A DNA stretch of 42,816 nucleotides from positions 1 through 42,816 of the IMG/VR virus record IMGVR_UViG_3300028597_000030; one strand, given 5' to 3'. Shown piece by piece: positions 264 through 40,233 of this stretch. Position 1 is the first letter of the stretch. Each line of letters starts with the position of its first letter. This DNA is from a virus. The notes under the pieces are model-generated. The model saw nothing but the letters and a program-made list of their open reading frames with translations. It did no database searches and was not told where the DNA came from. The translations under genes and the position numbers were made by a program.

Positions 264-297
264 AGGGACCAGCTACTCACGTGAGTAGCTGGTCCCT
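264..297 (+). terminator. CTCACGTGAG palindrome, copy 1, terminator-like
   Basis: Perfect 34-bp inverted repeat (AGGGACCAGCTACTCAC and its complement) followed by TTTT. It lies between the stop at 252 and the start at 316. A GC-rich stem with a U run fits a rho-independent terminator. The core matches 14 other copies. Confidence 0.7.
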
Positions 298-315
298 TTT
301 CGTGTTTGGAGACTC

Positions 316-507
316 ATGGCAACCGTGACTCAGCGAGTAATCGACAGGATCTATAGCCCTCCGCTGGGGACCATCCGGGAGGCCGGCCCCGGGGTGGAGT
401 TCATCGTGTTCCGCTCCGCCACCCAGCGGAACGACTGGCCCCGTATCTGGGAGGCCCTGGGAGTGGCGTACGTCCGTGGCGCCACGGTGGGGCTGAGGGG
501 GGACTGA
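316..507 (+). CDS. Hypothetical protein, 63 aa
   Basis: Starts at ATG behind TTTGGAGAC, just downstream of a terminator-like palindrome, and is followed within 2 bp by the next gene. No signal peptide, membrane segment or known motif is visible. It begins an early-type cluster of short genes that leads into the replication genes. Function unknown. Confidence 0.6.
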   Translation: MATVTQRVIDRIYSPPLGTIREAGPGVEFIVFRSATQRNDWPRIWEALGVAYVRGATVGLRGD

Positions 508-508
508 C

Positions 509-691
509 ATGGGCCCCTGGGAGGAGTGGCTGGACAAACTCATGGACGTCAACAAGTTCCGTGTTCGCAAGGTGGGGGGCCGCTGGCGTGTCTACGCGCC
601 CGGGTACGTCCTCCGCACCGTGGCCGTTGCTGACTCTTGGGAGTCAGCTATGAGCTACGCCACCAAGCTGGCCAAGAGGAGGACCCGATGA
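509..691 (+). CDS. Hypothetical basic protein, 60 aa
   Basis: ATG start with a G-rich ribosome site (GAGGGGGGAC) in the end of the gene before. The protein is basic and tryptophan-rich (KVGGRWRVYAPG) and ends in KLAKRRTR, which could bind nucleic acid. Its end overlaps the next start by 4 bp, so translation is probably coupled. No family recognised. Confidence 0.6.
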   Translation: MGPWEEWLDKLMDVNKFRVRKVGGRWRVYAPGYVLRTVAVADSWESAMSYATKLAKRRTR

Positions 692-870
692 GGGCATACC
701 GCAAGACCACCAGGCATCCCGTGTGTCTGTACTTCACGGACCAGGAGGCCCTCCGCCTGGTCCAGGAACTCACCACGGCGTACCCCGTGGAGGACTGGTC
801 AGACATGCCGATGATGACCAGGCTCCTGAACGCGCTGGAGACCACCCGCAAGGGGGGTCACCGTGGCTAA
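688..870 (+). CDS. Hypothetical protein, 60 aa
   Basis: ATGA overlap with the gene before and a good upstream AGAGGAGGA. An in-frame ORF extends further upstream to 637, but this start has the ribosome site. The sequence (LYFTDQEALRLVQEL) looks like a small helical protein. It overlaps the nuclease gene by 8 bp. Function unknown. Confidence 0.6.
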   Translation: MRAYRKTTRHPVCLYFTDQEALRLVQELTTAYPVEDWSDMPMMTRLLNALETTRKGGHRG

Positions 871-1405
871 CCCGTCCAAGGCCCGGGGGACTGCCTGGGA
901 GTCCGCTATCCGGGACTACCTGAACGAATCGCTGGGCCTCTACTGGCCGGACTGGCGGGAACGCAAGCGCAACGGGATGACCCAGTGGCGCAACCCCATG
1001 GACCCCGCCAACATCAAGCGCCAGGCCCAGGAGGGCGCCAAGGACGTGGGGGACCTCCACGCCTGGCCGTTCGTCCTGGAGGCCAAGGACGTCAAGAATC
1101 CGGCCGTACCCGCGTGGATGCGCCAGGCCCGGGTGGAGGCGTTCAACGCTGGGTTTCCGTACTACGTGGTGTGCCACAAGCTCCGGGGCCGCCACGTGTC
1201 GCACGGGTGGGTGTACCTGGACGTTCGGACGTTCACCGCTGTCCGTCTGGCGCTGGGCATGCCGGCCCGTGAGTTCTGGGATTGGTACGGGTTCGTGGAT
1301 TCCAAGCCCCTCCGGGGTATCGACACGTCGCGTTGGTACTGGGGGACCAGCATGGCCCACCTGGCCCAGATCATCGGGGACGTACGGGAGGCTGGCAGCA
1401 AGTGA
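863..1405 (+). CDS. PD-(D/E)XK nuclease, Holliday-junction-resolvase-like
   Basis: A 180-aa protein with the pattern of small resolvase-type nucleases: GTAWESAIRDYL near residues 9-20 with acidic E13, GDLHAW with D64, then EAKD at 73-76, giving the E-x-K of a PD-(D/E)XK active site. Such phage enzymes cut branched DNA during replication and packaging. The GTG start has an AAGGGGGG site upstream. It stands two genes before the primase-helicase, which fits DNA metabolism. The exact substrate is an inference. Confidence 0.65.
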   Translation: MANPSKARGTAWESAIRDYLNESLGLYWPDWRERKRNGMTQWRNPMDPANIKRQAQEGAKDVGDLHAWPFVLEAKDVKNPAVPAWMRQARVEAFNAGFPYYVVCHKLRGRHVSHGWVYLDVRTFTAVRLALGMPAREFWDWYGFVDSKPLRGIDTSRWYWGTSMAHLAQIIGDVREAGSK

Positions 1406-1587
1406 GCAACTATGAGATCCGGGTACAGGAGCCCAGCGACGTAGCCAAGTCGTACGGCATGGATTACCCACTGTTCGTCGTCTGGGACACGGTGACGGAC
1501 AAGCGTGTCCCGTTCGGCAACTACCGCGAACGTGCCAGGGCCGTGGAGCGCGTACAGCGCATGGAGTCGCGGGCCACGGGCCGCTGA
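1402..1587 (+). CDS. Hypothetical protein, 61 aa
   Basis: GTGA start overlapping the nuclease stop, so probably translationally coupled. The protein reads VSNYEIRVQEPSDVAKSYG and ends in an arginine-rich helix (ERARAVERVQRMESRATGR). The stop codon itself lies inside the dispersed GGGCCGCTGACCCCAGAG box. No family recognised. Confidence 0.55.
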   Translation: MSNYEIRVQEPSDVAKSYGMDYPLFVVWDTVTDKRVPFGNYRERARAVERVQRMESRATGR

Positions 1588-1595
1588 CCCCAGAG
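1578..1595 (+). repeat. GCTGAC box, copy 1
   Basis: GGGCCGCTGACCCCAGAG. The TGA of the box is the stop codon of the gene ending at 1587, and the box is 25 bp before the primase-helicase start. One of about ten copies of this dispersed element. Confidence 0.6.
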
Positions 1596-1619
1596 ACCCC
1601 AGCGAACGGAAGGAATCAC

Positions 1620-4070: not shown

Positions 4071-4084
4071 CACACCAGACAACC

Positions 4085-4120
4085 AAGGGACCAGCCACTC
4101 ACGTGAGTGGCTGGTCCCTT
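4085..4120 (+). terminator. CTCACGTGAG palindrome, copy 2
   Basis: Perfect 36-bp inverted repeat with CCACTCACGTGAGTGG at its centre, followed by CTTCACG. It is identical, with its flanks ACCAAGGG and CCCTTC, to copy 3 on the other side of the methylase gene. A partial repeat TCACGTGAGGAG follows directly and supplies the next ribosome site. Confidence 0.65.
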
Positions 4121-4136
4121 CACGTGAGGAGAGATC

Positions 4137-4784: not shown

Positions 4785-4795
4785 CTCAGATCACC

Positions 4796-4831
4796 AAGGG
4801 ACCAGCCACTCACGTGAGTGGCTGGTCCCTT
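4796..4831 (+). terminator. CTCACGTGAG palindrome, copy 3
   Basis: Perfect 36-bp inverted repeat identical to copy 2 and followed by CTTG. It lies between the methylase stop and the polymerase ribosome site AAGGAGAG. Confidence 0.65.
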
Positions 4832-4851: not shown

Positions 4852-6720
4852 GTGCGCGCGTACAACCACGGCATTGCCGGTGACAACGTAACGGTGTTCG
4901 TCCCGGAGACCCCCGGGGATCTGGTCCACTTCAAAGACTGGTGGGCCCACTCGAACAGCCACATCGCGCTGGACACGGAGACCACCGGCCTTGACATCTT
5001 CTCCGTCGGCCATCGCCTCCGTACGGTCCAGTTCGGGGACGCCAACACGGCGTGGGTCATCCACTGGGAGCGTGGGGGCCTGTTCGTGGAGGCCGTGGTG
5101 GAGTTCTTCCGCCGCTTCCGCCGTACCCTCCTCATCCATAATGCCCCGTATGACTGGCTGGTTCTGGGCCGACACACCGGCCTACGTCTGGAGTGGCTTG
5201 CCGGACACACCCGGGACACCCAGGTCCTGGCCAAGCTGGTGGACCCCCGCCAACCCCAGGAGGGCGGCATCGGGGCGGCCCTCAAGCCTCTCAGTGCCTT
5301 CTACGTGGACCCCACGGCCCCCGACACCCAGGGGGATCTCACGGCGGTGTTCCGCTCGCTGGGCCTCACCAAGGCCACCGGGTGGGCCGGTATCCCGCTG
5401 GACCACCCGACCTACAACCTGTACGCCGGCCTGGACGTCATCCTCACGGCACGCCTGGCCCCCATCCTGGAGGCGGAGCTGGATCGCCTGGGGGTCCGTC
5501 CTGTCCTGGTGGAGTACGAACATGAGGTACTCCACATCTGCGCTGAGATGCAGCGCAAGGGCATGGTCCTTGACCTGGAGTACGCGGAAACCCTCTCCAG
5601 CAAGTTGGCGGAGATTGAGGACCAGTACAGCAAGGTGGCCCGGCGCTACGGCGTGGAGTCCGTCAACGCTCCGAAGCAAATTGCGGAGGCCCTCCTGGGC
5701 ATGGGGGAGGACCTCATCCTCCCGGGCAACACGGCGCCGGAGTACACGGCCGGCGGAGCCATCAAGGTGGACAAGCCGGTTCTGTTCTACCTGGCGGACC
5801 TGGACACCAAGGACGGCTCCCGCCTGAACGTCCGCAAGCCCAACCCCCTGGCGGAGGCCATCATCCGGGCCAAGAGGTCCGGCAAGTGGCGCAAGACGTA
5901 CGCGGACACGTTCCTGGAGACCGTGGACCCAGACGGACGCATCCACCCGAACATCCAGACCCTCCAGGCCCGCACGGGACGTATGAGCGTCACCAGGCCG
6001 GCCCTCCAGACCCTCCCGTCATCGGACCAGATGATCCGTAGGGCCCTCCTGGCGGAGGAGGGTGGCGTCATGATCTCCACCGACTTTGCGGCCATCGAAA
6101 TGCGCGTGTTGGCCGCACTGGCGGACGTGAAACAGATGAAGCGGGCCATCCTGGCAGGGGAGGACCTCCACGAGTACACGGCGCGTCTCGTGTTCGGAGA
6201 CGGGTTCACCCCCAAGCACCGGAAGCTCTGTAAGGGCGTGGGGTTCGGCAAGGTCTACGGGGGCGGCGCGGCCACCATCGCGCGTCAGACCGGTGCGCCT
6301 ATGGAGGACGTCCAGCGGGCCATCCGGGCGTATGACCGTGTGTACCCGGAGATCAAGCGCGCGTCTGCTCGCTGGCAGCGTGATGCGTTCGCCAACGGGA
6401 TGGTGACCATCTCCGCCACCGGCCGGCGTCTCCCGCTGGACCGGGACCGTACGTACGCCGTGGTGAACTACGCGTGCCAGAGTGCGGCCCGTGACTGCCT
6501 GGGCCAGGCCCTGGTGACGATGAAGGAGAAGGGCCTCCTGGAGTACCTCCGCCTGCCCATCCACGATGAGGTCCTTGCGTCGGCCCCCAAGGAGGACGCT
6601 GCGGACGTCGCGCGGGCCATTGAGGAGTGCATGACGTTCAACCTGTTCGGTGTCCCGGTGGCCGCTGAGGCGGAGATAGGCAAGCGCTCTTGGGGCTCCC
6701 TCTACGGGGCGGACTACTGA
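4852..6720 (+). CDS. DNA polymerase, family A
   Basis: A 622-aa replicative polymerase. A 3'-5' exonuclease domain starts with DTETTGLD (D41, E43). The polymerase domain has motif A (STDFAAIEMRVLA, near residue 410), motif B (RKLCKGVGFGKVYGGG, near 457) and motif C (HDEVL, near 571). There is no 5'-3' exonuclease domain, as is usual for phage enzymes. The GTG start follows AAGGAGAGACCA. An open frame extends upstream across the palindrome and the methylase gene, but this start is the one with a ribosome site. It works with the primase-helicase upstream. Confidence 0.92.
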   Translation: MRAYNHGIAGDNVTVFVPETPGDLVHFKDWWAHSNSHIALDTETTGLDIFSVGHRLRTVQFGDANTAWVIHWERGGLFVEAVVEFFRRFRRTLLIHNAPYDWLVLGRHTGLRLEWLAGHTRDTQVLAKLVDPRQPQEGGIGAALKPLSAFYVDPTAPDTQGDLTAVFRSLGLTKATGWAGIPLDHPTYNLYAGLDVILTARLAPILEAELDRLGVRPVLVEYEHEVLHICAEMQRKGMVLDLEYAETLSSKLAEIEDQYSKVARRYGVESVNAPKQIAEALLGMGEDLILPGNTAPEYTAGGAIKVDKPVLFYLADLDTKDGSRLNVRKPNPLAEAIIRAKRSGKWRKTYADTFLETVDPDGRIHPNIQTLQARTGRMSVTRPALQTLPSSDQMIRRALLAEEGGVMISTDFAAIEMRVLAALADVKQMKRAILAGEDLHEYTARLVFGDGFTPKHRKLCKGVGFGKVYGGGAATIARQTGAPMEDVQRAIRAYDRVYPEIKRASARWQRDAFANGMVTISATGRRLPLDRDRTYAVVNYACQSAARDCLGQALVTMKEKGLLEYLRLPIHDEVLASAPKEDAADVARAIEECMTFNLFGVPVAAEAEIGKRSWGSLYGADY

Positions 6721-6747
6721 GCCCCTACTTGTGAGGGAGTTGTGAAC

Positions 6748-6779
6748 GGTCCTCCACATCCTCATGGACGTGGAGGACC
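6748..6779 (+). terminator. Hairpin after the DNA polymerase
   Basis: GGTCCTCCAC and GTGGAGGACC form a perfect 10-bp stem with a 12-nt loop 27 bp after the polymerase stop. No T run follows. It directly abuts palindrome copy 4. Probable transcript end or mRNA-stabilising stem. Confidence 0.45.
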
Positions 6780-6802
6780 ACCTCCTCACGTGAGTAGCTG
6801 GT
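6777..6802. repeat. CTCACGTGAG palindrome, copy 4 (imperfect arms)
   Basis: ACCACCTCCTCAC and GTGAGTAGCTGGT. The core is intact but the two arms belong to different arm types, so a hairpin would be weak. This favours a protein-binding role for the core. Confidence 0.6.
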
Positions 6803-7044
6803 GTTCCGCCTCACATCGGGCAAGAATTTTTCGAACACGCCCCAACCGGCAAGATCAAGGCCCGGACCCCCTATACCGAAGGTAACGATGCCTCCGGAAT
6901 AGGGGGTTCCCTTCGTTCCCAAGGTGGATGTCAAGTCACGCCTTGGATTTTCACGCATCCATCACAACCGCCGGCACGTCTAGTAGGTGAATCGGGGTTG
7001 TGTGCACCTACTCACGCGTGTTCCTATCCGATCGAACACCACAT

Positions 7045-7068
7045 CTCACGGGGTGCGCACTCCGTGAG
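7045..7068. promoter_or_regulatory. Operator-like 24-bp palindrome
   Basis: CTCACGGGGTGC followed by GCACTCCGTGAG, with a single mismatch between arms. The outer CTCACG and CGTGAG echo the dispersed CTCACGTGAG core, but here they are separated. It lies about 150 bp before the sigma-factor start. Confidence 0.4.
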
Positions 7069-7167
7069 CTGGGACCGGACTAGGGCTTGGTTCCCCATGC
7101 CCATCTGCCTCCGCATCCGGAGGTCCTAGCTCACGCTTGCGCATGCCGTAGCGCCACGCCCTTGTCC

Positions 7168-7188
7168 GGGCCGCTCACACCAGAGCAC
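7168..7188 (+). repeat. GCTGAC box, variant copy 2
   Basis: GGGCCGCTCACACCAGAGCAC, with one change in the GCTGAC core. It lies 28 bp upstream of the sigma-factor-like gene. Confidence 0.5.
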
Positions 7189-7216
7189 ATGCCAACAACG
7201 GACACGGGAGTAGACA

Positions 7217-8083
7217 GTGGCGCTTACCGCCAAGACCATCACGGACGCCAAGGCCGGAGACCTGGAGGCCGTCCAGGCCGTCACGGCGGCCACGGACCGC
7301 ATCATCGGTTCCCTGGCCAACGATGCCGCCAACAAGGGCGGCAAGGGCCACATGCACGTGGCCACGCTAAAGGAGGAGCTGGAGGCGGAGGGTCGCCTGG
7401 CACTCTGGGAGGCCATCTCCCGCTGGGAGGGTGACCACCACTCCGGCGCCACCCCGGAGACGTTCCTGTTCCAGCGCATCAAGGGCGCCATCCACGAGTG
7501 CCTCCAGCGCACGGTGAACCCCGGTGCGGACCTGGACGCCCTCCGTGTCTTCACCCAGTGCCTCCGGGTGGCGGACGGGAACCTGGACCTGGCCGCTGAG
7601 CTTTGCACAACCCTCCCGGAGAAGGGCCGCCGGCTCTCCCTGGATAGGGCCCAGGCGGCCAAGTTGGCATACCAGGGGGCCCGGAGCCTGGACGCTCCCC
7701 TCCCGGGTTCGGAGGACGGCTCCCAGACCCTGGGGGACACCCTGGCGGAACTGGTCCCCTATGACGTGCCGGAGGACCTCCTGGACCCCAGCGACGTCAC
7801 GGCCCGCCAGCGCACTCTCCGGCTGACCATCTTCCGTGCCGTGTTCGGCTCCCTCTCGGAGTTCCGCCAGGGCGTCCTCAAGATCCGGGCGGAGTACGGC
7901 CAGGGCGTGGACCTGGACATGGACACGGAGGACGTCCGGGAGATGGCCCGGGACCGGGGCCTCAAGGGTGAGGGCATCCTCCCCGCCCGTGAGGAGGTCA
8001 ACGACGCGTGGCGCAAGGGCATCAAGCAACTCCGGGAGTCCCTCCCCGTGGACGTCCTCTACCCCGCCCGTACGGGCCGCTGA
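7217..8083 (+). CDS. RNA polymerase sigma-70-like factor
   Basis: A 288-aa protein with sigma-like architecture. A region 2-like segment (AEGRLALWEAISRW, then PETFLFQRIKGAI) lies near residues 57-92. A central segment has SLDAPLPG and TLGDTLAEL, the usual lead-in to regions 3 and 4. A region 4-like helix pair follows (FGSLSEFRQGVLKIRAEYG). Phage sigma factors redirect host RNA polymerase to phage promoters. The GTG start has GGAG upstream. The long leader implies tight control. The box GGGCCGCTGACCCCAGAG overlaps its stop. The assignment rests on pattern and could be weaker than it looks. Confidence 0.6.
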   Translation: MALTAKTITDAKAGDLEAVQAVTAATDRIIGSLANDAANKGGKGHMHVATLKEELEAEGRLALWEAISRWEGDHHSGATPETFLFQRIKGAIHECLQRTVNPGADLDALRVFTQCLRVADGNLDLAAELCTTLPEKGRRLSLDRAQAAKLAYQGARSLDAPLPGSEDGSQTLGDTLAELVPYDVPEDLLDPSDVTARQRTLRLTIFRAVFGSLSEFRQGVLKIRAEYGQGVDLDMDTEDVREMARDRGLKGEGILPAREEVNDAWRKGIKQLRESLPVDVLYPARTGR

Positions 8084-9380: not shown

Positions 9381-9416
9381 AGGGGACCAGCTACTCACGT
9401 GAGTGGCTGGTCCCCT
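9381..9416 (+). terminator. CTCACGTGAG palindrome, copy 5, terminator-like
   Basis: A 36-bp inverted repeat with one T/G wobble between arms, followed by TTTCG. It separates the lipoprotein from the candidate regulator and pairs with copy 6 on the other side of that gene. Confidence 0.7.
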
Positions 9417-9439
9417 TTCGTGTTGCGTGAGTAGGTGCC

Positions 9440-10889: not shown

Positions 10890-10925
10890 AGGGGACCAGC
10901 TACTCACGTGAGTAGCTGGTCCCCT
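10890..10925 (+). terminator. CTCACGTGAG palindrome, copy 6, terminator-like
   Basis: Perfect 36-bp inverted repeat followed by TTCTTG, 9 bp after the stop of the 456-aa gene. Good rho-independent terminator form. Confidence 0.7.
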
Positions 10926-15993: not shown

Positions 15994-16066
15994 TGGTCTG
16001 TAGCTCAACTGGCAGAGCACCGGATTGTTACTCCGGGGGTTCCTGGTTCGAACCCAGGCGGACCAG
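15994..16066 (+). tRNA. tRNA-Asn (GTT)
   Basis: Acceptor TGGTCTG/CGGACCA, D stem GCTC/GAGC, anticodon stem CCGGA/TCCGG with loop TTGTTAC (anticodon GTT), T arm CCTGG-TTCGAAC-CCAGG, discriminator G. CCA is not encoded. The last bases GGACCAG are also the left arm sequence of the conserved palindrome family, and copy 7 begins directly at its 3' end. Confidence 0.9.
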
Positions 16067-16082
16067 CCACTCACGTGAGTGG
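16067..16082. repeat. CTCACGTGAG palindrome, copy 7
   Basis: CCACTCACGTGAGTGG is perfect, but the right outer arm (GTGCCC) no longer matches GGACCAG on the left, which belongs to tRNA-Asn. It lies between the tRNA and the first HNH gene. Confidence 0.65.
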
Positions 16083-16106
16083 GTGCCCTGGAGAGAGGAC
16101 CGCAGC

Positions 16107-19315: not shown

Positions 19316-19329
19316 CCAACCTTGACCAC

Positions 19330-19345
19330 CTCCTCACGTGAGGAG
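19330..19345. repeat. CTCACGTGAG palindrome, copy 8
   Basis: CTCCTCACGTGAGGAG, with the third arm type and no long outer stem or T run. TTGACC lies 3 bp upstream (19322-19327), so the palindrome would fall in a promoter spacer, but no good -10 follows. It lies just before the portal ribosome site. Confidence 0.65.
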
Positions 19346-19365
19346 CTGAACCCCCGGAGGTGACC

Positions 19366-22480: not shown

Positions 22481-22504
22481 CCAGCTCCTCACGTGAGGAG
22501 CTGG
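22481..22504. repeat. CTCACGTGAG palindrome, copy 9
   Basis: CCAGCTCCTCAC and its exact complement, 24 bp, with no T run. It lies between scaffolding and major capsid genes, where partial termination or processing could raise capsid expression. Confidence 0.65.
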
Positions 22505-25736: not shown

Positions 25737-25746
25737 CCCTGGCCCC

Positions 25747-25768
25747 CAGCTACTCACGTGAGTAGCTG
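25747..25768. repeat. CTCACGTGAG palindrome, copy 10
   Basis: CAGCTACTCAC and its complement, 22 bp, after the major tail gene. No T run. Confidence 0.65.
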
Positions 25769-25845
25769 ACCCGGAGTGGCCGTGTCCTGGGTGGGGCACG
25801 GCCACTCTGTAACCACCCACCACCGCCCGATGAGGAGACCACATC

Positions 25846-29400: not shown

Positions 29401-29633
29401 CCCGACCCACGGTCAACGCAACCGGCAAGCCGGAACCGGTGTTCACCGCTGAGCAGTGGTCCAGCATTCACACGCTGGCCCAGCGGGGAGCCTCCGGCGC
29501 CCTCTCGCTTGACGGAGCCAGGGTCACCCTGGTCACGGAGGGCGGGAGCTTTGAGGCGTACGTGGATGCACGTGCGGACGAACGGATCAATGAGGGCCTG
29601 GTCAATCCGGCCGGCCTGGGAAGGACGCTGTAA
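26493..29633 (+). CDS. Tape measure protein with C-terminal NlpC/P60-like domain
   Basis: A 1046-aa protein. N-terminal part typical of tape measures (SLQGFAGDLRRQVVGPTEEA). A hydrophobic segment near 405-490 (FVLVAIAVAAFVAAIIVAY) is followed by repeated WLWEKAIKP-like units. Near residues 835-940 a peptidase-like domain has FDCSGF (catalytic-type Cys) and GHTAG (His). Tail length scales with this protein, and the peptidase may open peptidoglycan on entry. ATG follows AAGAGGTGACCA. Confidence 0.9.
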   Translation: MPAPEIAVAYVSVVPSLQGFAGDLRRQVVGPTEEAGSTAGEGFGSKLKAGILAGALAAGAVGAKALSDAFEQASITKKVQAQLGATSKEAAKYGKVAGQLYTKGVVDNFEAGAEAIKATVQGGLVPPDATNKQLESIATKMSDVATTFGTDMSMQTQAVSAMLKNKMAPDAEAALDTIAYGFQKLGPNAEDLLETFQEYSVQLRKLGLDSNDALGLFSQGLQAGARDTDIIADAFKEFSIRAIDMSDSSREAYKALRLDAKEMEAQIGKGGESARAGLDKVLDKLREMKDPVKREAAAVGLFGTQAEDLGTALLALDPSKAVGTLGKVGGTAREMGKTLRSGPLYELKTFKRELEQGLVNFMGAQVIPAIKDSITALKEMANWGRTAFQWVKDISPWLAPFALGIAGVTLALNAQKIMVALTTGVFATYRAAILVGTAITNGLAGAQALLNAVMALNPFVLVAIAVAAFVAAIIVAYNKVGWFRDLVDAAFKAIGAVVTWLWEKAIKPTFDLIGEIFMWLYTLVAVIVIGPIIVLVELLGAVFSWLWEKAIKPALKAIGDFFKWLWDKAIKPVIGYFKEGLRVLGSVFKWLYEKGVKPPLNAIADAAKWVWDKGVKPAFNRLKDGLKAVGDAFKSAKEFISKQWSKLSDIAKKPVGFVINHVYNEGIVPLWNKVAKVVGGKTLGTLKGFAKGGILAGRSSWRDGDDQLVPMRKGEGVYVSEAMRDPYERARLHAVNQAAMRGQSLSRYQGGQGYAKGGIVGTIGDWTKSAWDWGKDTVGGFLNKGFGAVKGMLDGLPGANTGWGSLIKEVPLSWIKSLTALGKDKESKLTGGPGVKSALAWAKAQAGKPYQWGGAGNPSFDCSGFMSSIQKKIMGQNPKGRLWSTFSFQGDQAPAGWVRGLKAPFMIGITNANKGHTAGTLAGVNVESRGGDGVVVGPGARGYDSSLFNAVYGFAPSKKYDSGGWLMPGARPTVNATGKPEPVFTAEQWSSIHTLAQRGASGALSLDGARVTLVTEGGSFEAYVDARADERINEGLVNPAGLGRTL

Positions 29634-29636
29634 CGA

Positions 29637-29843
29637 ATGAGTACCCCCACGGAGGACCCCATCGTGGTCACGGACCCGTATGAGATCCCTCAGACGGAGG
29701 AGACCACCGACGAAAACGGGGACACCACGCTGGTGGGCTACCCGTCGGACGGAGCCATCCCGGTGGAGGCTCCGGCGGACACCACCAGCGACGGAGCCCC
29801 CGCTCCGGCCCCGGGGGACGGTAACGAACCCCAGGGCGCGTAA
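29637..29843 (+). CDS. Hypothetical acidic protein, 68 aa
   Basis: Starts 3 bp after the tape-measure stop. Rich in Asp, Glu, Pro and Thr (TDPYEIPQTEETTDENGD) and probably disordered. It may be a tail accessory by position. No family recognised. Confidence 0.55.
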   Translation: MSTPTEDPIVVTDPYEIPQTEETTDENGDTTLVGYPSDGAIPVEAPADTTSDGAPAPAPGDGNEPQGA

Positions 29844-29849
29844 GTCACC

Positions 29850-29879
29850 GGCCCAGCTACTCACGTGAGTAGCTGGGCC
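29850..29879. repeat. CTCACGTGAG palindrome, copy 11
   Basis: A 30-bp perfect inverted repeat with outer arms GGCCC rather than GGGAC. The change is matched on both sides, showing selection for dyad symmetry. Confidence 0.65.
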
Positions 29880-29898
29880 CCCTCCGAGAGATGGACAC

Positions 29899-32157
29899 AT
29901 GGCGTTCCCTAACCCGAACCTTCTCCCCAGTGATGCGGCCACGTTCGAGAGCGGGACGCATTCGTGGTTGGAGCCCACCTCCAACACCACACTTGCCGTG
30001 GTATCCGGCCAGTACCTGGAGGGCTCCCAGTCGCTCCGGTTCACCGCTACCTCCGCCGGCACGGTCCAGGCGTATTCCCCGTACGTCACGGCCACCCCGG
30101 GCAAGACCTACGTGGCCCGCATTCCCACCCGCATCGGCACGGCTGGAGCCGGTAAGAAGTTCACCGCGCGGCTCCTGTTCTACCCGGCCACGGGTGCCAA
30201 CATAGGGTCTTTCAACTCCAGCGTGACGCCCTCCTCCACCAGTTCCGGGTGGTCTGCAAACAACTATCCAGCCGTGTCCGCCGTGGCCCCGGAGGGTGGG
30301 GTCCGCATGCGTATCGCGCTCATCGCTGAGGGCCTGGCCGCCGGGGAATCCGTCAACATCGACGATGTGTACTTGGGTGAGGCGCCGCAGATCACCGGCA
30401 ACCTGTACCCGTACTCCGTCCAGTCGATGGAGTCCGGAATAAGCGAGTGGCAGAGTAGCGGGACCACCCTCGCCACGCTCAGTTGGGGGAGTGGCACCCG
30501 GTATGACGGTACGCGCTGCCTGGGAGTCCAGGCCAACAGCGTGGGGTTCCAGTACGCGCGTCCCACCACGTACGTGCCGGTAACCGCTGGCAAGGAGTAC
30601 GTTGGGGAGTTCTGGGTCTACAGTCCCGTTGCTACCTCCGTGGACCTCCTGGTCACGTGGCACAACGACACTGGCACGGAGGTAGGCCGGCTCACCTCTA
30701 CACGCACCCTCAGCGGAGGCGCCTGGGGGTACATGATCGGTGTTCAGGTGGCACCCCAGGGAGCCACCCAGGCCCGCATATGGTGCCGGCCCACATCCAC
30801 GGCCATCGGGGACACGTTCTACCTGGATGAGGTGGCCCTCAAGCCTGCCCCGAACCCCCAGGGCAACCTCCTCACGTATGACGAATACTCCACGGAGTCC
30901 ACGCTCCCCGCCTGGACCTGGACGGACGCCACTTACGACAGGGTGTACTACACGTCATCCATCACGGACGGCCGGTACACCCTCTCCGTCACACCGACGT
31001 CCAAGACCACGGTATCGGGCACCCTTGACAGGCTGGTCCCGGTGACGGCCGGCCAGACCTACCAGCTCCGGACCATGATCCTGAGACACAACCCCACTAG
31101 TGAGGTCATAAGCCTCACCGGGCGGGTTCGGGTGGACTGGTTCGATGACAACGGGGCCATGGTCCAGGCGGACGTCCCGGACCAGTTCTACAGCGTGACC
31201 AGCTCCGTCGCGTACTCCGGCATGCTGGTGGCTGAGACCCGGACATGCCCAGCGGGAGCCACACGGGCCCGGGTGGGAGTGGAGATTGACCACTCCACCT
31301 CACTGGCTGACTTCTACTACGTGGACCAGATCCAGCTTTACCCGTCGGACCCGCTGTACACGTTGAACGCCAACAACGGCATCGGGGCCGTCACGCTGAG
31401 AATCAACTATCAGCCTGGGTCATCACCCACCTCCATCACCATCCGCCGGGTGGACGCCGATGGTTCGCTGACCCCCCTCCGGGGCTACGGCCAGGAGTAT
31501 GACCGTGCCCCGTACACCACCTCTCCCGTGGTGGTGGAGGACTATGAGGCCCCCCTGGGGAGTCGGATCTGGTACGTCGCGGAGTGGTACAACTCCTCCG
31601 GCGTCCTGGTCGCACGGCTCCAGACCCAGATCATCACGGCCCCCGTCCTGGCCGATGGGGATTACGTGTGGTTCAAGTCTCCGGGCCTCCCGGCCATGAA
31701 CGTCATGGTGATGATGGAGACCGCAGTCAAGTGGGACCGGGCCGCCCGTAGCGCAGCACTGACCATCGTGGGCCGGCGGAACCCCGTCCAGATCACGGAC
31801 GTCCGTGGAGGCCGCACCGGGTCGCTATCCATCCTCATCTGGGATGAGCCCAGTCAGGTCCTGTTTGACCAGCTCCTGGACCCGGGCCTCCCGGTGCTCA
31901 TTCAGGCCATGCCCGGGTACGGACTCCCCGGCAACCTCTACGTGTCGGTGGGGGACTCCTCCACGGAGTCCGTGGTGAACGTCGCCAGCGATGAGGGTTG
32001 GCGCTGGACCCTGGCCGTGAGCGAGATTGACCGGCCGGAGGGCGGCCTCCAGGGCTCCGCCGCAGGTACATGGCAGGACGTCATGGCCACCAACGCGGAC
32101 TGGGGCGCCGTGGACGCCACGTTCGGTAACTGGGCCCAGGTGCTCACCAACGAATGA
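29899..32157 (+). CDS. Minor tail protein, large, 752 aa
   Basis: Begins NPNLLPSDAATFESGTHSW and contains at least three similar modules with jelly-roll carbohydrate-binding character: SQSLRFTATSAGTVQAYSPY, GTRCLGVQANSVGFQYARP and RYTLSVTPTSKTTVSG, each followed by a V(P/T)G/AGK or AGQTY segment. It probably binds cell-wall sugars at the tail tip. The C-terminal part is different (VKWDRAARSAALTIVGRRNP), as in proteins that attach to the tail. Confidence 0.75.
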   Translation: MAFPNPNLLPSDAATFESGTHSWLEPTSNTTLAVVSGQYLEGSQSLRFTATSAGTVQAYSPYVTATPGKTYVARIPTRIGTAGAGKKFTARLLFYPATGANIGSFNSSVTPSSTSSGWSANNYPAVSAVAPEGGVRMRIALIAEGLAAGESVNIDDVYLGEAPQITGNLYPYSVQSMESGISEWQSSGTTLATLSWGSGTRYDGTRCLGVQANSVGFQYARPTTYVPVTAGKEYVGEFWVYSPVATSVDLLVTWHNDTGTEVGRLTSTRTLSGGAWGYMIGVQVAPQGATQARIWCRPTSTAIGDTFYLDEVALKPAPNPQGNLLTYDEYSTESTLPAWTWTDATYDRVYYTSSITDGRYTLSVTPTSKTTVSGTLDRLVPVTAGQTYQLRTMILRHNPTSEVISLTGRVRVDWFDDNGAMVQADVPDQFYSVTSSVAYSGMLVAETRTCPAGATRARVGVEIDHSTSLADFYYVDQIQLYPSDPLYTLNANNGIGAVTLRINYQPGSSPTSITIRRVDADGSLTPLRGYGQEYDRAPYTTSPVVVEDYEAPLGSRIWYVAEWYNSSGVLVARLQTQIITAPVLADGDYVWFKSPGLPAMNVMVMMETAVKWDRAARSAALTIVGRRNPVQITDVRGGRTGSLSILIWDEPSQVLFDQLLDPGLPVLIQAMPGYGLPGNLYVSVGDSSTESVVNVASDEGWRWTLAVSEIDRPEGGLQGSAAGTWQDVMATNADWGAVDATFGNWAQVLTNE

Positions 32158-32164
32158 CCCGCTG

Positions 32165-32196
32165 GGGACCAGCTACTCACGTGAGTGGCTGGTCCC
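32165..32196. repeat. CTCACGTGAG palindrome, copy 12
   Basis: GGGACCAGCTACTCAC and GTGAGTGGCTGGTCCC, with one T/G wobble as in copy 5. No T run. Between two tail genes. Confidence 0.65.
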
Positions 32197-32222
32197 TCCG
32201 GGGACCCCCAAGGAGGGCCCAC

Positions 32223-33341
32223 ATGCTTGCTACGTCGTCCCGCTGGGCCAAGGCCCTCACCGGTAGTCACGGCCTGGCCGTCAAGGTCAACGCGCTCTAC
32301 AACGGGGCAGTGACCAAGGAGGGCCTGGGGTTCACGGAGGGCTCCGTCAAGGTCGACCGTGGCAGCGAGACACGACGTTCCCTGTCGCTGACCCTCCCGG
32401 ACCCCCGTGACTTTCCCGTGGACCCCACGGACACGTACGGGGTGTACGGCCAGCGTCTCTACGTGGAGCGTGGCATCCGGTACCTGGACGGCTCCACGGA
32501 GCTGGTCCCGATGGGAACGTTTGTGATCACCGGGGTCTCCGGCAACATCCACACGGGCCCGCTCACGGTCACCGGGGCCGGCCTGGAGCTCCTGGTGAAG
32601 CGGTCCAAGTATGAGGCCGCAGCGTCCACGAACGGCCGGACGGCCAACTTGTTCGTGGAGCAAGCCATCCAGGAGGCCATTCCCGGGGCTTCATTCGTCT
32701 CCACGGCCACCCGGGGGACCCGGTTCCTGGCCACCAAGACCTGGGAGGCGGACACTGAGCGCTGGGCGGCCATCAAGGACGTCGCCACGGCCATCGGGGC
32801 AGAGGTCTACTGCGACGCGTACGGCACGTTCCGGATGGTGGACGTCCCGGACGTAGACCTCCTGGGCTCCCCGGTGTGGACCGTGAATGCCGGTGAGCGT
32901 GGCGTCATGGTCGCTGCGGACGTGACCCTCTCCGGGGACGACGTATTCAACCGGGTCATTGTCACGGGGGAAAACGCGCAAGACAACGTGCCCGTGGTTA
33001 CCGGGACGGCCACCATCACGGACACGACGGACCCCCTGTACTACGGCGGCCCGTTCGGCAAGGTGACTAAGCGCGTGTCCTCCAGCCTGGTGACCACGGC
33101 CCCGGACGCCCTCACCACGGCCCAAGCCCTCCTCCGCAAGTACAGACAGGCGAATCGCTCCGTGGCCCTCTCCGCCGTTCCTAACCCCGCCCTGGACGCT
33201 GGCGACTGGATACGGGCCGACTACGGACCCGGGATCTCCCCGGAGCTCCATCTGGTCCAGTCGTTCGACATCCCGCTGTCCGTGAGTGGCGGGGCTTTCA
33301 ACATCCAGACAGTGAGCGGACGTATGGAGGCGGGGGCCTGA
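32223..33341 (+). CDS. Minor tail protein (tail-tip/hub type), 372 aa
   Basis: ATG behind AAGGAGGGCCCAC. An upstream in-frame ATG at 32154 would read through the palindrome and is not favoured. Segments such as SETRRSLSLTLPDPRDFPVD and DDVFNRVIVTGEN match tail proteins of actinophages that resemble the central hub. The C-terminal ALLRKYRQANRSVALSAVPN and DAGDWIRADY support this. Confidence 0.7.
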   Translation: MLATSSRWAKALTGSHGLAVKVNALYNGAVTKEGLGFTEGSVKVDRGSETRRSLSLTLPDPRDFPVDPTDTYGVYGQRLYVERGIRYLDGSTELVPMGTFVITGVSGNIHTGPLTVTGAGLELLVKRSKYEAAASTNGRTANLFVEQAIQEAIPGASFVSTATRGTRFLATKTWEADTERWAAIKDVATAIGAEVYCDAYGTFRMVDVPDVDLLGSPVWTVNAGERGVMVAADVTLSGDDVFNRVIVTGENAQDNVPVVTGTATITDTTDPLYYGGPFGKVTKRVSSSLVTTAPDALTTAQALLRKYRQANRSVALSAVPNPALDAGDWIRADYGPGISPELHLVQSFDIPLSVSGGAFNIQTVSGRMEAGA

Positions 33342-35392: not shown

Positions 35393-35416
35393 CCAGCTAC
35401 TCACGTGAGTAGCTGG
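35393..35416. repeat. CTCACGTGAG palindrome, copy 13
   Basis: CCAGCTACTCAC and its complement, 24 bp, between the two holin-like genes. Confidence 0.65.
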
Positions 35417-35660: not shown

Positions 35661-35676
35661 GGCCGCTGACACCGGA
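35661..35676 (+). repeat. GCTGAC box, copy 6
   Basis: GGCCGCTGACACCGGA directly after the holin stop and running into the hairpin before the kinase. Confidence 0.5.
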
Positions 35677-36341: not shown

Positions 36342-36346
36342 CTTCA

Positions 36347-36384
36347 AGCCCCTCTCCAGCCTCATGGCTGGAGGGGGGCTTTTT
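36347..36384 (+). terminator. Rho-independent terminator
   Basis: AGCCCCTCTCCAGCC and GGCTGGAGGGGGGCT with a TCAT loop, followed by TTTTGCG. The strongest classical terminator in the window and not of the CTCACGTGAG family. It ends the late transcript. Confidence 0.85.
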
Positions 36385-36465
36385 GCGTTCCGGGGTTGCG
36401 CTGGTGTCCAACCGTACTGTTAACTGGTGCTCCACCCGGAAACCACGGACAAAGGACACGGGACG

Positions 36466-37941
36466 ATGCGATTCAGCCGGACCAAGAGTGCTACGGGAGC
36501 CACCCAGTACCAGGCTGAGGGCGTTACGTTCCGGTACACCGTGGAGCGTGACGGTAAGGACTGGCTCCTCACTATCCGTCGCCTGGAGACGGTGGCCGGC
36601 ATCCGGGTGGCCGTCCAGGGCCGTCCGGTGGAGGAGACGACAGCGGACCGGATGACCACCTGTAAGGACATCGCCACGGAGTTTGAGGCCCTGGGGGATG
36701 GTTACCGCTCCGCTGACCACGGCCACCGTGAGCGCTTCACGGAGGCTGTCCTCCGGGCCTACGGTGACGCCAGCTCCTCACGTGAGGAGGAGGGCTTGAC
36801 CCAGGCCCCCGACTCCAGTAACGTCCCTTCTCGCAACACCACGAACGAACACACCAACCAAGGAGAGATCACCATGGCCGCCAAGACCACCACCGACACC
36901 AAGCCCTCCGCCGCTGAGATCAAGGCGGACGTGGAGACGGCCCTGGAGGCCCTCACCACGGCGGACACCCAGGACAAGGTGGACGGCCTGTCCGCCCAGA
37001 TCCAGGAGTCCCTCAAGGGCCTCCGGGTGAACCAGCGGGTCGGCCTGGAGATGCGACGCAAGGAGGCCGTGGCGGAGGCCACGGACAGGCTCAAGGAGGC
37101 GGCCAAGCCCTCCACGGAGGTCGCCACCAAGCCCAAGGCGTCCGCCTCCTGGATGGAGATGAAGGGCGGAGAGGAGGAGGCCAAGAAGCTGATGGAGGCC
37201 GGCGTCTCCCGCATCCGTGAGGGCGCGGAGATTGGCCTCAAGGCCGCTGACCTCTTCAAGGAGGTCGCGAATGTGATCTTCGTGGGCCGCCTCCGCCTGG
37301 AGAACAAGGCCGGCCTCCCGGACATCACGGGACGCTCCCAGGGTGCCCGGAACCTCTCCACGGACATGTTCACGGAGGCCAAGAAGACCGTGGCGGAGGA
37401 TCAGGTGGACCTCCTGGAGTTCCACGCCTCCCTGGCCAAGGGCGTCCAGAACCGTATGACGGACGTCACGGTGGAGTTCCTCCGGAAGCTGGCGGGGCTC
37501 TCGTGGGAGGACGCTGCGGAGCTGTTCCCGTTCCTGGCCGGAGAGGGCGTCAAGCGCATCCTGGCCAAGATGGGCCCGGAGGCCCCGGAGGACGCCGACC
37601 CGGAGACCCTGGTCCGCTACGTCTACGCACAGAACGGAATCGACCTCCCCACGGAGACCCGTGCGGAACTGGCCGCCCGCAAGCGTGCGGAGGCCAAGGA
37701 GCTGGAGAACAAGAAGGAGGAGGCCCCGGAGGGTGAGGGCGAGGGAGAGGGTGAGGGCCAGGAGGACACCCACACCCCGGCGGAGGAGAAGCTCCTGGCC
37801 GATGCCGCCAAGCTGGCCGACACGGTCAAGAAGCTGGGCGCCAAGGGCAAGAAGCTGGAGCCGGAGCTCAAGGCCGCCCTCAAGGCCCGCCTGGACGACG
37901 CCCTCAAGGAGTTGGCCGTGGCGTCCGCCGCCCTGGCGTAA
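36466..37941 (+). CDS. Upstream gene open in frame into the next gene (possible 491-aa fusion)
   Basis: ATG at 36466 follows AAAGGACACGGGACG. The first 100 or so residues look like a normal small protein (MRFSRTKSATGATQYQAEGV, then FTEAVLRAYGDAS). No stop codon follows. The frame passes through palindrome copy 14, a promoter and the ribosome site of the gene at 36874 and continues to 37941. Either a read-through fusion is made, or a stop was lost here. Residues encoded by the junction (SSSREEEGLTQAPDSSN) look non-domain. Family unknown. Confidence 0.45.
   Translation: MRFSRTKSATGATQYQAEGVTFRYTVERDGKDWLLTIRRLETVAGIRVAVQGRPVEETTADRMTTCKDIATEFEALGDGYRSADHGHRERFTEAVLRAYGDASSSREEEGLTQAPDSSNVPSRNTTNEHTNQGEITMAAKTTTDTKPSAAEIKADVETALEALTTADTQDKVDGLSAQIQESLKGLRVNQRVGLEMRRKEAVAEATDRLKEAAKPSTEVATKPKASASWMEMKGGEEEAKKLMEAGVSRIREGAEIGLKAADLFKEVANVIFVGRLRLENKAGLPDITGRSQGARNLSTDMFTEAKKTVAEDQVDLLEFHASLAKGVQNRMTDVTVEFLRKLAGLSWEDAAELFPFLAGEGVKRILAKMGPEAPEDADPETLVRYVYAQNGIDLPTETRAELAARKRAEAKELENKKEEAPEGEGEGEGEGQEDTHTPAEEKLLADAAKLADTVKKLGAKGKKLEPELKAALKARLDDALKELAVASAALA
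36774..36789. repeat. CTCACGTGAG palindrome, copy 14
   Basis: CTCCTCACGTGAGGAG, 6 bp upstream of the -35 of the promoter at 36796. Third arm type, no terminator form. It is located where a repressor or activator would bind. Confidence 0.65.
36796..36824 (+). promoter_or_regulatory. Sigma-70-type promoter before the 36874 gene
   Basis: TTGACC (36796-36801), 17-bp spacer, TAACGT (36819-36824). The -35 and spacer length match the promoter at 9440. The palindrome lies directly upstream. It would start transcription about 45 nt before the ATG at 36874. Confidence 0.65.
36874..37941 (+). CDS. Hypothetical coiled-coil protein, 355 aa
   Basis: ATG behind AAGGAGAGATCACC. Largely helical, with a charged N-terminal part (AAEIKADVETALEALTTAD), a middle segment GGEEEAKKLMEAGVSRIREG, and a Glu/Gly tract (EGEGEGEGEGQED). 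No membrane segment. It is read from its own strong promoter with an adjacent palindrome, so it should be an abundant early or regulated product. Function not recognised. Confidence 0.65.
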   Translation: MAAKTTTDTKPSAAEIKADVETALEALTTADTQDKVDGLSAQIQESLKGLRVNQRVGLEMRRKEAVAEATDRLKEAAKPSTEVATKPKASASWMEMKGGEEEAKKLMEAGVSRIREGAEIGLKAADLFKEVANVIFVGRLRLENKAGLPDITGRSQGARNLSTDMFTEAKKTVAEDQVDLLEFHASLAKGVQNRMTDVTVEFLRKLAGLSWEDAAELFPFLAGEGVKRILAKMGPEAPEDADPETLVRYVYAQNGIDLPTETRAELAARKRAEAKELENKKEEAPEGEGEGEGEGQEDTHTPAEEKLLADAAKLADTVKKLGAKGKKLEPELKAALKARLDDALKELAVASAALA

Positions 37942-37958
37942 CCCTCACCCCGCAAGCC

Positions 37959-37999
37959 GGAGCCCCTCTCCCGAACCCCCAGTGACGGAGAGGGGCTCC
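37959..37999 (+). terminator. Hairpin after the coiled-coil gene
   Basis: GGAGCCCCTCTCC and GGAGAGGGGCTCC form a perfect 13-bp stem with a 15-nt loop. No T run follows, so termination is less certain. Confidence 0.5.
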
Positions 38000-38025
38000 A
38001 CCCCGTGTAGAGGACGGAGTACACC

Positions 38026-38310
38026 GTGAGTTATCGGGAGCTGGAGGCCGTGGACGGACCACGGTTCATGACAGTTGAGGTCCTGGGTAGCGAGGAGTCC
38101 CACGCTGCCAAGCCGTGGGGCCTGGAGACCCTGTGCGGCCTCAAAGTGGACTACCCCATGGGCAAGGCAGAGCCTACGTGTGGCCGGTGCCGGGAGGACG
38201 CTGGGCTCCCCCCGGTGGGCCCGGTGGACCAGGAGGACCTCAAGGGGACCCCGGAGACCGGAGGCTACCCGGGGCCCTTCCCCACGCTGAACGGAGAGAC
38301 GGATGGCTGA
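38026..38310 (+). CDS. Zinc-finger-like protein, 94 aa
   Basis: GTG behind GGACGGAGTACACC. Residues LCGLKVDYPMGKAEPTCGRC carry C-x14-C-x2-C spacing, a possible zinc site. The C-terminus is Pro/Gly-rich. It overlaps the next gene by 8 bp. Function unknown. Confidence 0.55.
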   Translation: MSYRELEAVDGPRFMTVEVLGSEESHAAKPWGLETLCGLKVDYPMGKAEPTCGRCREDAGLPPVGPVDQEDLKGTPETGGYPGPFPTLNGETDG

Positions 38311-38446
38311 CCAGCGCAAGCGCAAGTGCGACCTCTGTGGACGGGTACGCAACGTGGAGGACCTGGAGGAGGTGACCGGAGGGACCTACGGATGCCGCCC
38401 CGGACGCCCGGGGTACCGCGAGTGTCAGGACGCGTTCGGGGGATAG
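38303..38446 (+). CDS. Small cysteine-rich protein, 47 aa
   Basis: ATG behind ACGGAGAGACGG. It reads MADQRKRKCDLCGRVRNVE and ends CRPGRPGYRECQDAFGG, so four cysteines in a likely zinc ribbon. It follows another cysteine-rich gene with overlap, which supports real coding. Function unknown. Confidence 0.55.
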   Translation: MADQRKRKCDLCGRVRNVEDLEEVTGGTYGCRPGRPGYRECQDAFGG

Positions 38447-38472
38447 CCTGAGAGGCCCTCTCCCGCCCTCAC

Positions 38473-38508
38473 AGCCCCTCTGAGCCCCAGTGGCCCAGGG
38501 GGGCTTTG
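38473..38508 (+). terminator. Terminator-like hairpin
   Basis: AGCCCC pairs with GGGGCT around an imperfect inner stem, then TTTGTC. It stands between the small genes and regulatory element B. Confidence 0.5.
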
Positions 38509-38548
38509 TCATGCCCGGAGACGGCCTCCTGGGGCCTCCTGGAGGGGC

Positions 38549-38712
38549 GTGACGGTTGTCAGCGCGCGGGGAGCCGTGGCCGGCCTCTCTGACCAGCACG
38601 AATGACGGTAGTGACGTTTTGCTAGTGATCCTGGAATGACATAAGAAAACCTATAGACAAGCCGGGATGACGGCCACGAACGTCATTCCGTCATCGGCCC
38701 CTCCCGGGCCCT
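38549..38712 (+). promoter_or_regulatory. Duplicated regulatory element, copy B
   Basis: Aligns with 14779-14940. Shared blocks include CAGCGCGCGGG, CTCTCTGACCAG, GGTAGTGACGTTT, CATAAGAAAACCTATAG (38640-38656), ATGACGGYCACGAACGTCAY and CGTCATCGGCCCCTCCCGGG. TTGCTA and TAAGAA are 17 bp apart and could be a -35/-10 pair. It lies before the exonuclease gene. Confidence 0.6.
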
Positions 38713-38722
38713 CTCTGAGCCT

Positions 38723-38738
38723 GGCCGCTGACCCCGGA
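38723..38738 (+). repeat. GCTGAC box, copy 7
   Basis: GGCCGCTGACCCCGGA, 39 bp upstream of the exonuclease start, joined to the end of regulatory element B. Confidence 0.5.
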
Positions 38739-38776
38739 CCACCGGAGGCAAGCAACCGACAGAGAGGGAGGCCCCC

Positions 38777-39616
38777 GTGGGCATCCGCACCGTGCGCAAG
38801 AGTGGCGCACGCTTCTACGTGAACCCCGCCACCCGGATCATGTACCCGGGCGTGACGTCCGTCCTGGGCATGCAACCCAAGACGTTCCTGGGCTACTGGC
38901 GCAGCAAGATGACAGCAGAACTGGCCGTCAAGTCGTTCCCGTTCCTCCAGGAGATGGTGGAGACGGCCGGCGAGGAGGCCGCTATCGCCTACCTCAAGGG
39001 TGCGGCGGACCGGTACACCAAGGCCCGCGCGTCCATCGGCAGCGAGGCTCACGACGTCTTCGAACGCCTCATTCGGGGTGAGGACGTGGGCCGCCAGCGC
39101 CAGGACCTGGAGCCCTACCGGCTCAACTTCCTGGAGTTCCTGGAGGTGGTCAAGCCGGAGCTGGTCTCCGCCGAAGACATCGCGTGGAGCGACACCCACC
39201 AGTACGCGGGATCGTATGACGTCATCATGCGTGTCCTCCTCTCCGTGGACGCCTCCGGCAACCTGTACGCCGACCCGGAGAACGGTCAGCCGTACCTCAT
39301 CATCGGGGACTGGAAGACGTCCAAGGACACCTACCCGGACGTGGCCCTCCAGATGAGTGCGTACGCGCACGCTGACAAGCTCATCGCCCCGGACGGGACG
39401 GAGCGCGCGGTCCCGGAGTTCGATGGCGCCGCAGTCCTCCACATCACGGACAAGACATGGTCCTTCAAGCCTGTCAACGCCGGCGCTGAGGTCTTCGGGT
39501 ACTTCCTGGCCCTCCGAAAGTCGTTCGACTGGGAGAGGGGCCTGGCCAAGGACGTCATCGGCCGACCGATCGCGAGTGGTGGCCGCATGGTCACCGGGAC
39601 GGAGCGACGCAAGTGA
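38777..39616 (+). CDS. RecB/Cas4-like exonuclease (PD-(D/E)XK)
   Basis: A 279-aa nuclease: GSEAHDVFERL (His of motif I), YAGSYDVIM, IIGDWKTSK (catalytic D and K) and LQMSAYAHAD (QxxxY motif). This pattern is the RecB family exonuclease used in phage recombination or DNA end processing. GTG follows AGGGAGGCCCCC. No recT partner is recognised beside it. Small genes follow with tight overlaps. Confidence 0.8.
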   Translation: MGIRTVRKSGARFYVNPATRIMYPGVTSVLGMQPKTFLGYWRSKMTAELAVKSFPFLQEMVETAGEEAAIAYLKGAADRYTKARASIGSEAHDVFERLIRGEDVGRQRQDLEPYRLNFLEFLEVVKPELVSAEDIAWSDTHQYAGSYDVIMRVLLSVDASGNLYADPENGQPYLIIGDWKTSKDTYPDVALQMSAYAHADKLIAPDGTERAVPEFDGAAVLHITDKTWSFKPVNAGAEVFGYFLALRKSFDWERGLAKDVIGRPIASGGRMVTGTERRK

Positions 39617-39681
39617 CCAACTGCCTGTGCAACCCCCAGCGTCCGGGCCTCTGCCCCGTGTGTTCCGGAGGTGGCAAGTGA
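39613..39681 (+). CDS. Tiny four-cysteine protein, 22 aa
   Basis: GTG overlapping the exonuclease stop. The product is MTNCLCNPQRPGLCPVCSGG followed by GK, with CxC and CxxC pairs that could hold one zinc. It overlaps the next gene by 4 bp. The position and compact cysteine pattern support it, but it is short. Confidence 0.4.
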   Translation: MTNCLCNPQRPGLCPVCSGGGK

Positions 39682-39899
39682 GGGACCGTACCGTCCGACG
39701 CGTGATGGACGCTGAGCGGCGCCGGAGGCTCCGCAGACGCCAGGACCTCAAGGACCTGGGATGGGTTCTCCTGGGCGTCCTGGCCCTCCTCCTGGTCATC
39801 GGCAACACGGTGGCGTACTACGCGGCGCCGTGTGACTCGCTGGGCTGGATGCCTGTCAAGTCGGCCCCGCTCCGGTGTGTGGCGGGTGAGGGCCGGTGA
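39678..39899 (+). CDS. Small membrane protein, 73 aa
   Basis: GTG with GGAGG 6 bp upstream. Arginine-rich start (RTVRRVMDAERRRRLRRRQ), then one membrane segment (WVLLGVLALLLVIGNTVAYY) and two cysteines outside (PCDSLG, LRCVAG). Inner-side positive charges predict the C-terminus outside. It could act in host-membrane takeover. Unknown family. Confidence 0.55.
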   Translation: MRDRTVRRVMDAERRRRLRRRQDLKDLGWVLLGVLALLLVIGNTVAYYAAPCDSLGWMPVKSAPLRCVAGEGR

Positions 39900-40228
39900 G
39901 CGTCCCGAAGATCACCAACGCCAGGGAGTACGGAGAGGCCATAGCGGAACTGTTCGCGCTGGCCCGGCCGGATGGCAAGGGTCGAGTATCGGACCTCCTC
40001 ACCGGCATCGTGGAGTACACCCAGGAGGATACCAAGGCCCGCCTGGAGGTCCCGGCTCCCGCTGGTATGTCCCGCCAGGAGGCCGTGGCGCTGGCCATTC
40101 AGCACGTGGAGAAGATGGCCACGAACGCCCGGGGCTACCAGGATGGCAACTCCCTGGCCACCAAGACCCAGGCCGTATCCACGTTCGTGGAGCTCCTCCT
40201 GGGGGAGACCAGCTCCTCACGTGAGTAG
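39896..40228 (+). CDS. Hypothetical protein, 110 aa
   Basis: GTGA overlap with the gene before. Helical, with AREYGEAIAELFALARPDGKG and EVPAPAGMSRQEAVALAIQ. The last residues (ETSSSRE) are encoded by palindrome copy 15, so the stop TAG comes from the repeat. No family recognised. Confidence 0.55.
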   Translation: MSVPKITNAREYGEAIAELFALARPDGKGRVSDLLTGIVEYTQEDTKARLEVPAPAGMSRQEAVALAIQHVEKMATNARGYQDGNSLATKTQAVSTFVELLLGETSSSRE

Positions 40229-40233
40229 CTGGT
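40208..40233. repeat. CTCACGTGAG palindrome, copy 15
   Basis: ACCAGCTCCTCAC and GTGAGTAGCTGGT, one mismatch between arms. It overlaps the 3' end of the gene at 39896. Confidence 0.6.

Follow-up and report, generated by a model that had tools for sequence, protein, structure and literature searches.

The repressor sites of phage phiC31 are named conserved inverted repeats (CIRs). The phage has three isoforms of its repressor, whose sites are multiple and dispersed (PMC4557955), and in its genome (NC_001978) we counted 15 exact CTCACGTGAG cores, mostly intergenic, with one directly before the c gene and one inside it. Here we describe the corresponding palindromes of the IMG/VR virus record IMGVR_UViG_3300028597_000030 (positions 1 to 42,816; this whole stretch of 42,816 nucleotides is referred to as the window). 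The 15 palindromes of the window are very probably CIRs, i.e., genome-wide operators that belong to, and co-evolved with, a c-type lysogeny repressor encoded by the phage itself (36874-37941). The type of system is already known from phiC31; the member in the window, as read from its half-sites, has outer arms of its own.

Fifteen copies of an invariant palindromic core

The window contained 15 exact copies of CTCACGTGAG, each at precisely the position given in a preliminary description of this DNA, compared with a mean of 0.10 copies (maximum of 1) in dinucleotide shuffles. The family is all-or-none because only two 10-mers in the window (at 4119 and 35699, about the chance level) are one base off the core. 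Half-site counts yielded a preferred operator of 24 bp, CCAGC(T/C)(A/C)CTCACGTGAG(T/G)(A/G)GCTGG. When left and right arms were re-paired between sites to provide the null expectation, 18.0 dyad matches were expected at positions -1 and -2, whereas 26 of 30 were observed (p = 0.001), and symmetry beyond chance was also found at positions -8 to -13 (p = 0.015). The arms thus usually change together, as had been proposed, although not absolutely, with exceptions at 6785 and 40216 (position -1) and at 9394 and 32176 (T.G at position -2). This covariation, along with the palindromic core present at all 15 sites, bears out the earlier view that dyad symmetry is maintained.

As first described, the family is genome-wide and includes sites in early as well as late regions. 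Thirteen sites follow a stop codon or the end of a transfer RNA (tRNA) at a distance of 1-65 bp, in most cases 11-28 bp. Numbered in genome order and with no strand assigned, putative operator 1 (269..292, core 276-285) is located inside an 18-pair hairpin followed by CCCTTTTCG; operators 2 (4091..4114, core 4098-4107) and 3 (4802..4825, core 4809-4818) form 16-pair hairpins in the primase/methyltransferase and methyltransferase/polymerase gaps, respectively; operator 4 (6778..6801, core 6785-6794), with asymmetric arms, lies 3' of the DNA polymerase gene; and operators 5 (9387..9410, core 9394-9403) and 6 (10896..10919, core 10903-10912) each combine a 16-pair hairpin with a T-rich tail and were scored as terminators. 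Operator 7 (16063..16086, core 16070-16079) adjoins the 3' end of tRNA-Asn (15994-16069), with which its left arm coincides, so that this half-site doubles as the acceptor end. Operators 8 (19326..19349, core 19333-19342) and 9 (22481..22504, core 22488-22497) occupy the terminase/portal and scaffold/major capsid gaps, operator 10 (25746..25769, core 25753-25762) is found beyond the major tail protein gene, operators 11 (29853..29876, core 29860-29869) and 12 (32169..32192, core 32176-32185) lie in gaps between tail genes, the latter as a long hairpin without a T tail, and operator 13 (35393..35416, core 35400-35409) is situated in a gap of the lysis region. The placement of all copies at gene ends or in gaps was very nearly correct, as seen from the 13 sites noted above; the remaining two are less simply placed. 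Operator 15 (40209..40232, core 40216-40225), which is 5' of the recombination directionality factor (RDF) gene and adjoins a promoter-like repeat at 40240, overlaps the final codons of the open reading frame (ORF) 39896-40228, and operator 14 (36770..36793, core 36777-36786) lies within the open frame 36427-37941, in frame with the repressor.

A short blastn search of phages and plasmids with the palindrome gave no match, as expected at such a query length, and was replaced by exact counting of cores in individual genomes. Such counts in related phages revealed 15 copies in phiC31 and 5-16 in eight other phages with c repressors (BT1, 16; TG1, 14; Vash, 15; Shawty, 14; Lilbooboo, 14; AbbeyMikolon, 10; Nesbitt, 9; and Euratis, 5). 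The suggested likeness to the phiC31 CIRs is therefore well founded, given the same 15-fold core in phiC31 and a c-family repressor in the window, whereas the added remark that the sequence is a different one was mistaken: the core is identical in all of these phages, and only the arms differ. The phiC31 arm CCTAC is not shared, with position -4 being G in 26 of 30 half-sites of the window and C in 26 of 30 half-sites of phiC31. Arm sequence varies within the phiC31 CIR family, and by this comparison arm identity is not needed for membership. A match to the palindrome in a Verrucomicrobium genome, a single copy in an 8-kb locus, was attributed to chance, and the genome collection searched yielded no prophage with window-type arms.

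Two operator half-sites also were noted. The first, CACCTACTCACG at 7005..7018 (+), has a counterpart in AbbeyMikolon, and a full CIR is present there in phiC31; the second, CACCTACTCACGC at 9424..9437 (-), adjoins operator 5, where phiC31 possesses a pair of full CIRs (34785 and 34824) with a spacing of 39 bp. Both are non-palindromic, carry phiC31-type arms, and are kept in AbbeyMikolon and Nesbitt.

A c-family repressor gene with an adjacent putative operator

The product of ORF 36874..37941 (+), the predicted ligand of the operators, matched Pfam PF25746 (Phage_Repressor_c, 'Streptomyces phage repressor protein c') with an E value of 6.9e-69 and a score of 233 bits, where the cut-off is 27, and its identity to the immunity repressor of Nesbitt is 60%. 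The preliminary description had named the 9510 protein and the ATPase as proteins to test for binding; the former (9483/9510) was rejected as binder because it had no family match, while a c-family repressor is encoded at 36874-37941. Site 36777 is located 88 bp 5' of the repressor start, a position that suggests autoregulation through this site. The frame 5' of the repressor start is open for 149 codons (36427..36873, + strand), with no stop and a coding-like GC content at third codon positions (GC3). This in-frame extension makes a longer repressor isoform possible, as in phiC31, or may represent a separate gene.

Conserved positions and co-evolution of putative operators and repressor

With a 20-kb query from the window, matches at ∼81% covering 65% of the query were obtained to three Streptomyces phages: AbbeyMikolon, Nesbitt, and, in its left part, SF1. 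Nearly all AbbeyMikolon genes, including those for the serine integrase and RDF, have counterparts in the window in the same circular gene order. These comparisons place the window among the phiC31-like phages of Streptomyces, as a relative of AbbeyMikolon and Nesbitt, and the phage is presumably temperate. One gene spans both ends of the record, which suggests that the genome is circularly permuted and near-complete. IMG/VR also contains fragments of this phage population, and single-protein searches of that database with the repressor returned only such fragments or AbbeyMikolon. As a separate observation, the SF1 record (NC_028807) contains two complete structural gene sets, with the left 17 kb being AbbeyMikolon-like and the remainder not, and looks like a chimeric assembly.

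We observed that 11 of the 12 operator-like sites of AbbeyMikolon lie in gene junctions that also hold a window site, although the arms are rewritten; by chance, such sharing would have a probability between 4e-8 and 1e-6, according to how many junctions are assumed. When 15 phages were compared, half-site distance followed repressor distance (rho = 0.82, Mantel p = 0.0005), and this correlation was retained with DNA polymerase distance controlled (partial r = 0.75, p = 0.001), whereas the operator-polymerase correlation given repressor distance was -0.31. We regard this tracking of the repressor by operator divergence as the strongest evidence here that the putative operators are read by c.

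Environmental contigs with c homologues displayed the same core adjoining the gene. A de novo search of c-encoding phages that lack the phiC31 core revealed dispersed palindrome families of their own: CCYACTCTCAAGAGTRGG type palindromes in Sebastisaurus (13) and Heather (6), CACCCCT-N8-AGGGGTG in Sycamore (16) with a similar family in Shaeky, and CACCTAG-N8-CTAGGTG in Shady (13). These families apparently are undescribed operator types. The same search gave no convincing operator family in Dubu. Euratis, beside its five even-centered sites, possesses nine palindromes in which a single base is added at the center, CTCACSGTGAG (2182, 5401, 10380, 14162, 18249, 22627, 28796, 31706, and 32944, with that at 14162 lacking arms); the extra base possibly reflects a change of operator spacing.

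Hairpins and T-rich tails at a subset of sites

Sites 276, 4098, 4809, 9394, and 10903 fold as 16-18-pair hairpins of ∼-33 kcal/mol. A terminator scan was passed by sites 9394 and 10903, a stem and tail were recognized at 276 by inspection, and most late sites were without a tail. Among the exact-core sites of ten phages, 127 in all, stretches rich in T near the dyad were more common downstream than upstream (p = 6.5e-5), and this excess was absent 26-41 bp from the dyad. With sites picked by their tail alone, a fully paired outer stem was present at 12 of 14 tailed sites versus 11 of 113 tailless sites (p = 5e-9; the minus-strand control gave 1/3), where both this p-value and that for the tails are optimistic because the phages are related and their orthologous sites do not count as independent. 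A subset of the operators probably lies within intrinsic terminators and doubles as terminators, and the simplest reading of most late sites, which have no tails, is that they would be operators only. We see an even chance that such sites form a conserved composite class in phiC31-like phages, in which a dyad of ∼40 bp would serve both as DNA operator and as RNA terminator and stop transcription with or without repressor; the outer stem would be kept by RNA pairing and the inner arms by repressor specificity, and arm sets would turn over together to create new immunity groups.

Alternative explanations

The 13 sites close behind a gene end, the five early sites folding at ∼-33 kcal/mol, and the downstream T-rich tails (p = 6.5e-5) that accompany paired outer stems (12/14 versus 11/113) would all be expected if the palindromes were intrinsic transcription terminators only, such that the RNA hairpin matters and the DNA is read by no protein. 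We consider this very unlikely because the core of 10 bp, located at the tip of the hairpin, does not vary among the 15 copies or across genera, and RNA pairing needs no such invariance; furthermore, sites 6785, 16070, 19333, 36777, and 40216 have broken stems and no T tail, site 36777 lies within an open frame, and the change of motif tracks the repressor. The distribution of sites over early and late regions of the genome also could suit another phage DNA-binding protein, involved in replication, packaging, or the nucleoid, or the 9510 protein itself, with the c repressor acting elsewhere, and repressor binding is itself something that we infer. Such a binder is nevertheless highly improbable: operator distance tracks the repressor and, once the repressor is controlled, not the polymerase; the same core is found in phiC31, for which multiple dispersed repressor sites are established (PMC4557955); and the 9510 protein has no family match. 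Unlinked copies are highly similar, in places over 34 bp, as might be seen if a mobile or selfish palindrome had spread by duplication and lacked a regulatory role, but the positions are kept between genera while the arms changed genome-wide, and near-miss copies are no more common than chance, leaving this explanation an almost negligible likelihood.

Several points weigh against the interpretation of the sites as c operators. Binding, repression, immunity, termination, and the oligomeric state of the repressor all are inferred from sequence. For four of the window sites, the corresponding junction in AbbeyMikolon lacks a counterpart, and the motifs of the distant phages were aligned on their dyads via patterns chosen by eye. 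The repressor shares only ∼30% identity with phiC31 c over 167 aa. Its AlphaFold model (mean predicted local distance difference test score of 76) is almost all helical; a search of the PDB with this predicted fold gave no match (best E value of 0.5), and a profile-sequence search with the repressor returned only noise and identified no DNA-binding domain. Since neither search was productive, we claim no DNA-binding domain; by the PDB search, the c repressors would be a DNA-binding family without known structure.

Proposed mechanism and implications

If the palindromes are c operators, the repressor in a lysogen, probably in dimeric or higher oligomeric form, would occupy every site by binding both the conserved core and the lineage-specific arms, and would shut down lytic transcription by promoter occlusion, by a block of elongation, or by both. 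The repressor may regulate its own gene via site 36777 and would confer on the cell immunity to phages with the same arms. In the absence of repressor, early sites 276, 9394, and 10903, and perhaps 4098 and 4809, would end transcripts as parts of intrinsic terminators.

Under this interpretation, the phiC31 immunity system also covers a lineage whose operator arms are its own. The window phage, AbbeyMikolon, TG1, Euratis, Sebastisaurus, and the Sycamore/Shady type form a natural series in which the repressor family and 6-20 sites changed together, and the questions of how c reads DNA and how a dozen scattered operators can be rewritten together in one phage are therefore testable. The differing specificities could also provide orthogonal pairs of repressor and operator for use in laboratory strains of Streptomyces.

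Other elements

A second repeat family, GGGCCGCTGACMCCAGANNACT, is present in 10 copies with ≤3 mismatches (0.14 expected), all on the + strand (1578, 7168, 8074, 14950, 15541, 34234, 35660, 38722, 40240, and 41097) and mostly some tens of bases 5' of a gene or tRNA; these repeats are candidate phage-specific lytic promoters. All phiC31-like phages examined also contain a non-coding gap of 470-500 bp between the DNA polymerase gene and a sigma-like gene (6720-7217 in the window, and 32121-32601 and 29483-29958 in comparison genomes L007 and L008, respectively). It holds conserved blocks besides the CIRs and is a candidate for a non-coding RNA or a replication origin.

Comparison with known systems

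R4 and phiScoe, compared here by their description, resemble the window phage in being temperate phages of Streptomyces and in having intergenic repressor sites, eight or more in number (PMC10276819); no R4-type record was among the c-homologue matches. The stoperators of cluster A mycobacteriophages (L5 and Bxb1) likewise are many dispersed repressor sites, and their cognate motifs diverge with the repressor (PMC6550527). The stoperator likeness drawn in the preliminary description applies to function only: stoperators are mostly one-directional and oriented with transcription (PMC6550527), and those of L5 are asymmetric at non-operator sites (PMC4557955), whereas the sites of the window are palindromic and its repressor belongs to Pfam Phage_Repressor_c rather than to the L5 type.

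AbbeyMikolon and Nesbitt (Abbeymikolonvirus) are the nearest sequenced relatives, with the same core and a repressor that is 60% identical, but their arms are CCACCAC rather than the CCAGCTA of the window, their exact cores are fewer (9-10), and two late sites have a changed core, CTCACATGAG or CTCACACGAG. PhiC31, along with BT1 and TG1 (Lomovskayavirus), shares the identical 10-bp core in palindromic, intergenic sites, with 15 copies in phiC31 itself. As in phiC31, one site is in frame before what would be the small repressor form (36777 in the window and 19776, inside c, in phiC31), the c-family repressor gene is located between those for a deoxynucleoside monophosphate kinase and an exonuclease-type protein, and the genome order is the same. 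The window differs from phiC31 in its arms, CCAGCTA versus about CaaCCTA, and in its long paired outer stems, which occur at 6 of 15 sites compared with 1 of 15 in phiC31.

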